From assembly GCA_012959605.1 (NCBI GenBank), contig DUCU01000016.1:5803-43293 (forward strand): a stretch of DNA of 37,491 bases, written 5' to 3'. Both the position numbers and the translations under genes were made by a program. The notes below the pieces were generated by a model. It saw nothing but the letters and a program-made list of their open reading frames with translations, did no database searches and was not told the origin of the DNA. Numbering within the stretch: position 1 is the stretch's first letter; each line of letters starts with the position of its first letter. Below are positions 33,767 through 37,043 of the stretch, one piece after another. The stretch comes from Dehalococcoidia bacterium. GTDB lineage: Bacteria > Chloroflexota > Dehalococcoidia > Lucifugimonadales > UBA3495.

Positions 33767-33883
33767 CCCCGGCGGTGACCTATTTTCCCACTCCGTCGCC
33801 AGAGCAGTATCGTAGGCGCTGAAGCGTTTCACTACCGTGTTCGGGATGGGAACGGGTGGGGCCGCTTCGCTAGAACCACCAGG
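33767..33883 (-). rRNA. rrf: 5S ribosomal RNA
   Basis: Reverse strand reads CCTGGTGGTTCTAGCGAAGCGGCCCCACCCGTTCCCATCCCGAACACGGTAGTGAAACGCTTCAGCGCC...GGGAAAATAGGTCACCGCCGGG; terminal helix CCTGGTGG/CCGCCGGG pairs. Confidence 0.96.
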
Positions 33884-34115: not shown

Positions 34116-35252
34116 ATGGGGAGAAGGCTATTTAAGGAACTAGAGCGTTCTTACGGTTTTGACGAAGTAGCAATCGTTCCCGGCCAGGTGACGATTAACC
34201 CCGAATTGACCTCAACCAAGATGAACATCGGGAACTTGTCATTTGAGATTCCGATTATGGCCTCCGCGATGGACGGCGCTGTTTCTCCAGGATTCGCCGC
34301 CTACATGCATGAGATGGGCGGCCTGGGCGTCCTAAACGCCGAGGGTCTATACACCAGATACGAAGACCCCTACTCAGTGTTGGAAGAGATTATCTCCTGT
34401 CCTCAGGATGAAGTCACCAGCTTCCTGCAAAAGGTCTACTCAGAACCGATTCGTGAAGAACTAATTGGCCAGCGCGTCCGTGAGATTAAGAACTCCGGAG
34501 CAACTTGCGCTGTGTCGTTCACCCCTCAGAACACCAAACGCATGTCCCCTGCGGCCGTCGAGGCCGGAGCCGACATGATTGTGGTCCAGTCCACTGTGAC
34601 CACTGCCCGGCATATGTCGAACAGTTACCGTGGTCTGGTCTTCTCCGAACTCATCGATGCCTTGAAGGTTCCCGTGATTGTGGGCAACTGCGTTACTTAT
34701 GAAGTTGCGTTGGAACTCATGGAAACCGGGATTGACGGCCTGTTGGTTGGCGTTGGCCCCGGCGCTGCCTGTACCACCCGCGAGGTGGTTGGCGTCGGCG
34801 TTCCCCAGGTTACTGCCACCCTCCAGTGCGCCGCGGCCAGGGAAGATTACTTCCGTAGGACCGGACGCTACGTATCGGTCATCACAGACGGCGGCTTCCG
34901 CACCGGAGGCGACATCTGCAAAGCCATGGTTAGTGGCGCAGACGGCGTCATGCTGGGCACCCCGTTTGCTCAGGCTAATGAAGCTCCCGGACGCGGGTTC
35001 AACTGGGGCATGGCCAATCCACACCCCGAACTACCCAGAGGAACCAGAATCTCCGTTGGCACCAAGGGCTCCCTTAAAGAGATTCTCTACGGGCCAACCT
35101 CCAAGACCGACGGCACACAGAATTTCATGGGTGCCCTGAAAGTGGCCATGGGCATGTGCGGCGCCTACACCCTACGTGATCTGCACAAAGCCGAGATGGT
35201 CATAGCCCCTTCGATTAAGACAGAAGGCAAATTCTTCCAGATGAGCCGCTAA
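34116..35252 (+). CDS. GuaB3-family IMP dehydrogenase-related protein
   Basis: [42 protein letters not shown]..., [51 protein letters not shown]. Confidence 0.93.
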
Positions 35253-35286
35253 TATCTCCTAGAGTTAACTATCCCTGGAGGCCAAT

Positions 35287-35829
35287 ATGGCACAGGCGAC
35301 CGGCATGATAGAAATCCTTGATCCCACTGCTGAGGATGTCCCCGAGGAACTGGGACTCAGCGACGCCCTCCCCGACCTTAAGGGAAAGGTAGTTGGCCTT
35401 CTGGAAAACCGTAAGTACCACGCCGACGCTTTCTTGGGTGAACTAAAAGATGTGCTGCTTAACGAATACGGCGCAGAAAGGGTGGTATACGCCACCAAGT
35501 TCACCTACAGCGCACCCTGCGCCGATGAGACGATACAGTCTCTATCTGATGAATGCGATGTGGTGATTCACGCCATTGCCGATTGAGGCTCCTGCACAGC
35601 GTGGGGTCTCCACGACACAGTGTTAACCGAGTCCAAGGGCGTACCGTCCGTGAGCGTCATCACCAGCACTTTCACCAGGGCCGCCCACGCCAGGGCCACT
35701 GCCTTGGGAATGCCCGGAGCACGCATTGTAGTGCTGCCCAGCCCGCTGGCCCCGCGCACGATCCCCGAGGTCCAGCAAATGGCTCACGATTATGCACCTG
35801 AGATTGTTGGTCTTCTAACCGGAAAATAA
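35287..35829 (+). CDS. UGSC-family selenoprotein (in-frame TGA at 35584-35586 read as selenocysteine), 180 aa
   Basis: Upstream frame ...CDVVIHAIAD-[TGA]-GSCTAWGLHDTVLTESKGVPSVSVITSTFTRAAHARATALGMPGARIVVLPSPLAPRTIPEVQQMAHDYAPEIVGLLTGK* stays in frame; UGSC motif; SECIS-like hairpin directly downstream. Confidence 0.9.
35587..35614 (+). promoter_or_regulatory. Bacterial SECIS-like element
   Basis: Stem CGTGG (35600-35604) / CCACG (35610-35614) with loop GGTCT (35605-35609), 18 nt between TGA and the loop. Confidence 0.8.
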
Positions 35830-35866
35830 AACCAACACAATCACCACTCCCAATAAGAAAAACAAG

Positions 35867-35887
35867 AGGGCCTTAATGGCCCTTTTT
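35867..35887 (+). terminator. Intrinsic terminator after the UGSC gene
   Basis: AGGGCC-TTAAT-GGCCCT followed by TTTT. Confidence 0.8.
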
Positions 35888-35975: not shown

Positions 35976-37043
35976 GTGAGTTCCGTTTCCCTTAATGCCA
36001 GACGGGTAGATGTACCAGATTCATTCCAGGCCATCCAAGACTATTGCTGGGAACAGGGCTGGACCGATGGACTGCCAGTGGTGCCGCCCACGGAACCCCT
36101 GGTGCGAGAGATGCTGGCCGGCTACGGAGGTGCGCCTTCTTTATCTCTGGGAACGATGCAACCGCGAAACGCCCAGGCAACTTTGGAGAAGATCGCCATC
36201 AACGCGGTGATGGCCGGCTGCACGCCGGATTACTTCCCAGTTGTGGTTGCGGCAGTGAAAGCGTCGTTGGGCAAAGACTTCAATCTAGGCGGGAATGCTG
36301 CCACCACCGGCGGAGCTGCCCAGGTCATGATTATCAATGGCCCCATCGCAGCGGAGTTGGAAATAAATGGCGATGCCGCCTGCTTTGGTCCTGGGTCTAG
36401 ATCAAACGCCGCCATTGGCCGGGCTCTGCGGCTGGTAATCCGTAACGTGGGCGGTCTGGTGCCAGGGGAGATGGACAAAGCAACTCTGGCCACTCCCGGC
36501 AGGTACAGCTTTTGCTTCGCCGAGAATGAAGCCCGCAGCCCCTGGGAGCCCCGAAACGTGCAGATGGGCTACCCCGAAGGGTCTAGCACCGTCACGTTGG
36601 TTGCCGTCAGAGGCGTCTACACCCTCATGGAATCAACGTCCCCGACCGGACTAGGTGTGCTACAGACGATTGTTGGGAACATGCAAGCCGTTGGCATATC
36701 CAACTACTATCAGATCGGAACCGGCGCCCAAATCGTGGTGGTCATTTGTCCGGAACACGCCGAGGAGATCGCCGCGTCAGGCCTCTCCAAGTCTGACGTC
36801 CAAGAATTCATCTACCAGAACGCACGGATGCCGCTAAGGATCTTGATGGACCGGGCCCATTACGGCAACCGCAACTGGCCAAGTTGGGTTGACCAGAGCG
36901 ACCCGGAGACGCTGGTGCCCATTGTCCTGTCATCTGAAGATTTGGTGATTATCGTTGCTGGCGGTGACGGTCGTCACTCAGCCTGGTTGGCTGGATGGGG
37001 CGTAACTCGAATGGCCACGGAAGAAATCATCAAGCACGCTTAA
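35976..37043 (+). CDS. Conserved protein of uncertain function adjacent to the UGSC gene
   Basis: 355 aa from GTG; soluble, Gly/Ala-rich motifs (AINAVMAGCTPDYFPVVVAAVKA, GGNAATTGGAAQVMIINGPIA, NAAIGRALRLVIRNVGG). Confidence 0.8.
   Translation: MSSVSLNARRVDVPDSFQAIQDYCWEQGWTDGLPVVPPTEPLVREMLAGYGGAPSLSLGTMQPRNAQATLEKIAINAVMAGCTPDYFPVVVAAVKASLGKDFNLGGNAATTGGAAQVMIINGPIAAELEINGDAACFGPGSRSNAAIGRALRLVIRNVGGLVPGEMDKATLATPGRYSFCFAENEARSPWEPRNVQMGYPEGSSTVTLVAVRGVYTLMESTSPTGLGVLQTIVGNMQAVGISNYYQIGTGAQIVVVICPEHAEEIAASGLSKSDVQEFIYQNARMPLRILMDRAHYGNRNWPSWVDQSDPETLVPIVLSSEDLVIIVAGGDGRHSAWLAGWGVTRMATEEIIKHA

Follow-up and report, generated by a model that had tools for sequence, protein, structure and literature searches.

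A UGSC-family selenoprotein gene and its conserved partner gene in a Dehalococcoidia genome

Introduction

Near the end of the stretch of DNA analysed here (37,491 nucleotides, in the following the window, whose terminus is also the contig end), two open reading frames lie in the same frame on either side of a TGA, which raises the question whether this codon terminates a first gene or is translated as selenocysteine (Sec) within a single one, and what the product might do together with the gene that follows it. A sequence-only reading had proposed that both halves form one selenoprotein of the UGSC family, hidden from ordinary gene callers. The host is a marine bacterium of the SAR202 type, and the closest named contigs are SAR202 cluster / Dehalococcoidia MAGs. 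A UGSC-containing protein was catalogued as a selenoprotein family in the 2008 GOS survey (PMC2398784), and UGSC is listed among the catalogued selenoprotein families (PMC2398784, PMC9312934, PMC13188914), so that the gene is a further member and not a new kind of selenoprotein. What is described here in addition is a partner gene, a SECIS-like constraint across subgroups of the family, and its multiplication in SAR202-type genomes; neither the partner gene nor a relationship to GrdB/PrdB figured in the sequence-only reading.

One UGSC Gene Across an In-Frame TGA

The gene occupies positions 35287-35829 of the plus strand, from the ATG at 35287 to the TAA at 35827-35829, and direct reading of the sequence places a Shine-Dalgarno-like GGAGG (35277-35281, plus strand) 5 nt 5' of the start codon. 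The same kind of reading confirms the continuous frame of 180 amino acids with the TGA at 35584-35586 (plus strand) as the sole in-frame stop before the TAA. In the readthrough protein Sec is residue 100, and the motif U-G-S-C covers residues 100-103 in the context ...CDVVIHAIAD-U-GSCTAWGLHDTV.... The ORF list indeed contains the two separate ORFs that had been noticed, one ending at 35586 and a same-frame GTG at 35620, which could also mean that translation truly stops at the TGA, or that the codon is an assembly or sequencing error, and that the gene is broken or represents two genes. Same-frame joins across a TGA are common in the window, which contains five that have 75 or more amino acids on both sides; ORF geometry therefore offers some room for such a reading, and it is the family evidence that carries the selenoprotein claim.

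Both halves of the gene match the UGSC models NF041046 (NCBIfam) and PF24696 (Pfam). In the profile search the separate halves have reached 45 and 69 bits against one family, while the joined 180-aa protein scores 135.3 bits with NF041046 (cutoff 125) and 166 bits with PF24696 (cutoff 25), so that the match extends over both halves, lies above the curated cutoffs once they are joined, and identifies them as parts of one protein, as had been claimed. The first residue of the motif is exchanged between Sec and Cys: where the window protein has U100, the homologues of an Archaeoglobi MAG (L115) and of four Sphingomonadaceae (L116-L119) carry CGSC, and their Cys (TGT/TGC) aligns with the TGA, which settles the search for Cys homologues that the sequence-only reading had suggested. 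With its full-length match above the cutoffs, its U-G-S-C motif and this Sec/Cys exchange the window protein agrees with the family, and nothing family-breaking sets it apart. Every UGSC match listed for 47 related genomes contains exactly one in-frame TGA, which falls on the first residue of the motif in the matches that were inspected. The genome analysed here holds six UGSC genes with one TGA in each, and up to 13 copies have been counted in one genome. The term "hidden" is only partly apt, as UGSC is curated in NCBIfam and Pfam and a pipeline using those models could detect the gene; the selenoprotein part of the proposal has stood.

The SECIS-Like Hairpin and the Sec Machinery

Behind the TGA lies a SECIS-like hairpin, CGUGG-GGUCU-CCACG (35600-35614, plus strand), with a loop that begins 19 nt after the TGA and a stem that is conserved in Sec homologues. 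Of 74 Sec homologues, 73 form such a stem (5 bp or longer) around a five-base loop that starts 19 nt after the TGA, as against none of five Cys homologues; these counts do not represent independent events because the homologues are mutually related. With one exception, the loops of the 73 hairpin-bearing Sec homologues read GGTCT or AGTNT, and the Ser loop codon, where present, is always AGT. The observed mean stem amounts to 5.1 bp, compared to 1.3 bp in synonymous-codon shuffles, and the closing pair differs on both sides between subgroups (G-C in 39, C-G in 34). The SECIS of E. coli fdhF has the identical GGUCU loop and spacing. Within the window, a single one of the 1250 TGA triplets on both strands, the one in the UGSC gene, has a [G/A]GTNT loop closed by 5 bp or more at the right distance behind it. 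For 57-76 nt around the TGA of the window gene alone no unusual folding stability has been observed (z about -0.3), and the fixed position of the hairpin across homologues is the sole informative folding signal.

The Sec machinery, for which the sequence-only reading had advised a search of the remaining genome, has been found in full and above curated cutoffs, comprising tRNA-Sec (anticodon TCA), selA, selB and selD. The selD gene of this genome (L049) has an in-frame TGA of its own, so its product is itself probably a selenoprotein. Given the one in-frame TGA in each match listed for the 47 related genomes, the conserved hairpin and the complete machinery, a true stop or a sequencing error can hardly be credited. 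A changed genetic code, with TGA specifying another residue such as Trp, would keep the frame open under any such assignment; yet the homologues have Cys and not Trp at the TGA, tRNA-Sec and selA, selB and selD are present, and this is the only TGA in the window with the hairpin behind it, which makes such a code exceedingly improbable. Insertion of Sec at the UGA 35584-35586 of the UGSC gene is, judged from the sequence comparisons, almost certain.

A Partner Gene Fixed to UGSC

Downstream of the UGSC gene follows a gene for 355 amino acids (35976-37043, plus strand), which we propose to encode a second subunit on account of co-occurrence, adjacency, fusions and co-divergence. Neither alone nor as a family has this partner matched any Pfam or NCBIfam family, and its Pfam matches at loose thresholds have been rejected as scattered singles. 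UGSC and partner occur together in 47 of 60 relatives and are both absent in the other 13, and their copy numbers are near-equal across these relatives, even where these numbers reach 13. In the genome analysed here each of the six UGSC genes has a partner copy beside it, in either order. Of 101 sampled genomes from the phylum, this one among them, six have UGSC, with the partner adjacent or fused in all six. The adjacency is kept in archaea, Alphaproteobacteria and Chloroflexota. In-frame fusions of the two genes have been found in a paralogue of this genome (G000:C60), in the four sphingomonads (L116-L119) and in an acidobacterium (L120). Over 75 pairs the divergence of UGSC and partner correlates with r = 0.975, part of which comes from shared descent of the whole block, while the best of 500 permutations has reached 0.12.

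These relations could in principle also be those of mere syntenic neighbours with separate functions. The order of the two genes is variable and their spacing extends up to about 2.6 kb, and in the window a terminator-like hairpin with a T-run (35864-35886, plus strand; z -3.64 vs shuffles) lies between them, so that UGSC and partner may have separate transcripts here; a pattern scan lists this inverted repeat on the minus strand only. Uncoupled partner copies also exist. One genome of the phylum sample (G132) has a partner without UGSC, and a seventh partner copy of the present genome (G000:C55, L140:2540-3607), which is 68% identical to the window partner, has no UGSC match within the 9 kb taken around it. 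Against separate functions, however, stand the fusions in three lineages, the near-equal copy numbers even at up to 13 copies, the adjacency across archaea, Alphaproteobacteria and Chloroflexota, and the co-divergence, to which block descent contributes, and we regard mere neighbourhood as quite improbable. UGSC and its partner very probably constitute a functional module, as far as gene content and gene order can tell. In another module of the family (C3) a DUF1326 gene (L134:6346-6948) is situated between partner and UGSC.

The UGSC-partner module has not been found in the papers searched. The GOS survey reports a fusion of UGSC with a protein termed Unknown_1 (PMC2398784), which may be the partner described here.

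Genomic Neighbours of the Module

Directly upstream of the UGSC gene lies guaB3, an IMP dehydrogenase-related gene (34116-35252, plus strand; TIGR01304, 439 bits), and in more than 40 related loci the UGSC genes of this subgroup have the same upstream neighbour, at 78-98% identity. Other UGSC modules adjoin catabolic redox genes, namely those of an SDR, a GMC oxidoreductase, a thiolase, a luciferase-like monooxygenase and a flavin reductase. Since the neighbours vary between UGSC paralogues, no single substrate is implied. The catabolic redox genes agree with the picture of SAR202 bacteria in the literature, where they are described as users of diverse organic matter; a paper that joins SAR202 and selenoproteins has not been found among those searched. 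Further upstream in the window, a 5S rRNA gene is located on the minus strand (33767-33883), and no 23S rRNA match has been obtained elsewhere in the window.

Probable Common Ancestry With the Sec Domain of GrdB and PrdB

What kind of chemistry such a module might perform can be approached through selenoprotein B of the glycine, betaine, sarcosine and D-proline reductases (GrdB/PrdB; TIGR01918, PF07355, TIGR04483). GrdB and PrdB-like genes are carried by relatives of the present genome, as confirmed by TIGR01918. In profile-profile comparison (hhalign) the UGSC profile has matched the C-terminal domain of GrdB and PrdB with 93% probability (P 2.4e-7 and 4e-7), Sec being aligned on Sec, whereas reversed profiles have stayed at or below 2.6% and column shuffles at or below 1%. 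With the motif masked, the match still amounts to 83% with a wider set (alignment A3), and it drops to 26-46% under the widest motif masks with a GrdB-only alignment (A4). The homology concerns the C-terminal half of GrdB/PrdB over about 75-93 aligned positions, and both sides share the Sec position, UG[ST] or a comparable motif, and a subsequent E..G[IV]P segment. UGSC differs in having no counterpart of the upstream region of GrdB/PrdB and in being undetected by their models: none of 36 UGSC proteins searched in Pfam has matched the GRDB or PrdB models, and neither has the window protein in an NCBIfam search. For the partner no similarity to GrdB has been detected, which distinguishes the module from the GrdB system. 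To our knowledge, the host lineage is no Stickland fermenter. Based on the profile alignment we consider it highly probable that UGSC and the Sec domain of GrdB/PrdB share ancestry, a homology that has not been found in the papers searched.

Several short PrdB-like proteins (L162-L175) have also been observed in relatives and in this genome; directly behind their GRDB domain they contain an in-frame TGA (U-P-x-C), and they are a candidate for another paralogue-rich Sec family.

The predicted structures add the fold. AlphaFold models UGSC (pLDDT 91.6) as a Rossmann-like sandwich in which Sec sits at the tip of a central strand; Foldseek has returned many weak Rossmann-like matches for it in the PDB, none of them interpretable. 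The partner model (pLDDT 88.3) has no confident PDB match, and its Foldseek matches with cyclic amide hydrolase and fumarate hydratase (TM about 0.2-0.3) have been rejected as chance. A PDB sequence search with the UGSC and partner profiles has yielded nothing significant, and no GrdB/PrdB structure has been found by sequence in the PDB set.

The fold bears on another reading, according to which UGSC would be a thiol/selenol oxidoreductase of the thioredoxin type that reduces peroxides or disulfides through a selenenylsulfide cycle of its UxxC motif, with the partner as electron donor or target. UGSC does contain UxxC, a spacing it has in common with thioredoxin-like selenoproteins (Prx-like, AhpD-like, SelW), a Trx-like fold was put forward for it in the 2008 survey (PMC2398784), and one UGSC paralogue has AhpD/CMD and NADH-dehydrogenase-like genes in its vicinity. 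The predicted fold, however, differs from theirs, as the model is Rossmann-like and no Trx-fold protein occurs among its best 50 PDB matches (Foldseek); profile similarity to these selenoproteins has not been found, and the profile homology of UGSC leads to GrdB/PrdB instead. A thioredoxin-type function hence appears rather unlikely, while a redox role for UGSC in the context of a different fold is possible.

A Candidate Two-Subunit Selenoenzyme

Leaving the chemistry aside, the reading of the locus as a selenoprotein plus its partner is likely to be correct. In the mechanism that we propose, SelB and tRNA-Sec would decode the UGA 35584-35586 as Sec, guided by the hairpin 35600-35614, and UGSC would contribute the nucleophile, as one of two subunits, to an enzyme of which the 355-aa neighbour is the other part. 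The two proteins may form a physical complex. The partner would hold the substrate, and the Sec selenolate of UGSC would attack a carbon of the substrate so held, with the invariant Cys of U-G-S-C being available to resolve Sec. A C-N bond, or one like it, could thereby be cleaved reductively within a catabolic pathway, by an enzyme that has been multiplied in SAR202. For the glycine and proline reductases, selenoprotein B is believed to engage the substrate through its Sec, in an enzyme that also contains a pyruvoyl group (PMC10298544). The proposed use of a selenolate in UGSC is modelled on this Sec action, and the likeness refers to the selenolate step and not to the pyruvoyl step. GrdB-like nucleophilic reductive chemistry by UGSC, suggested by analogy, is accordingly put forward as a tentative assignment that we hold at somewhat less than an even chance.

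A more far-reaching, and rather doubtful, extension would be that UGSC and its partner represent an unrecognised class of two-subunit selenoenzymes derived from the Sec domain of GrdB/PrdB, in which GrdB-like selenolate chemistry, taken over from the anaerobic fermentation of amino acids, would have reached ocean heterotrophs and would have been multiplied in SAR202-type bacteria (up to 13 copies) against different, possibly recalcitrant, organic compounds.

The fixed partner, the fusions and the homology to GrdB/PrdB turn an "unknown redox protein" into a concrete hypothesis of a two-subunit enzyme, which is testable in the Cys fusion form of the sphingomonads with no need of selenium machinery. 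If it is true, the carbon catabolism of SAR202 would be linked to the supply of selenium.
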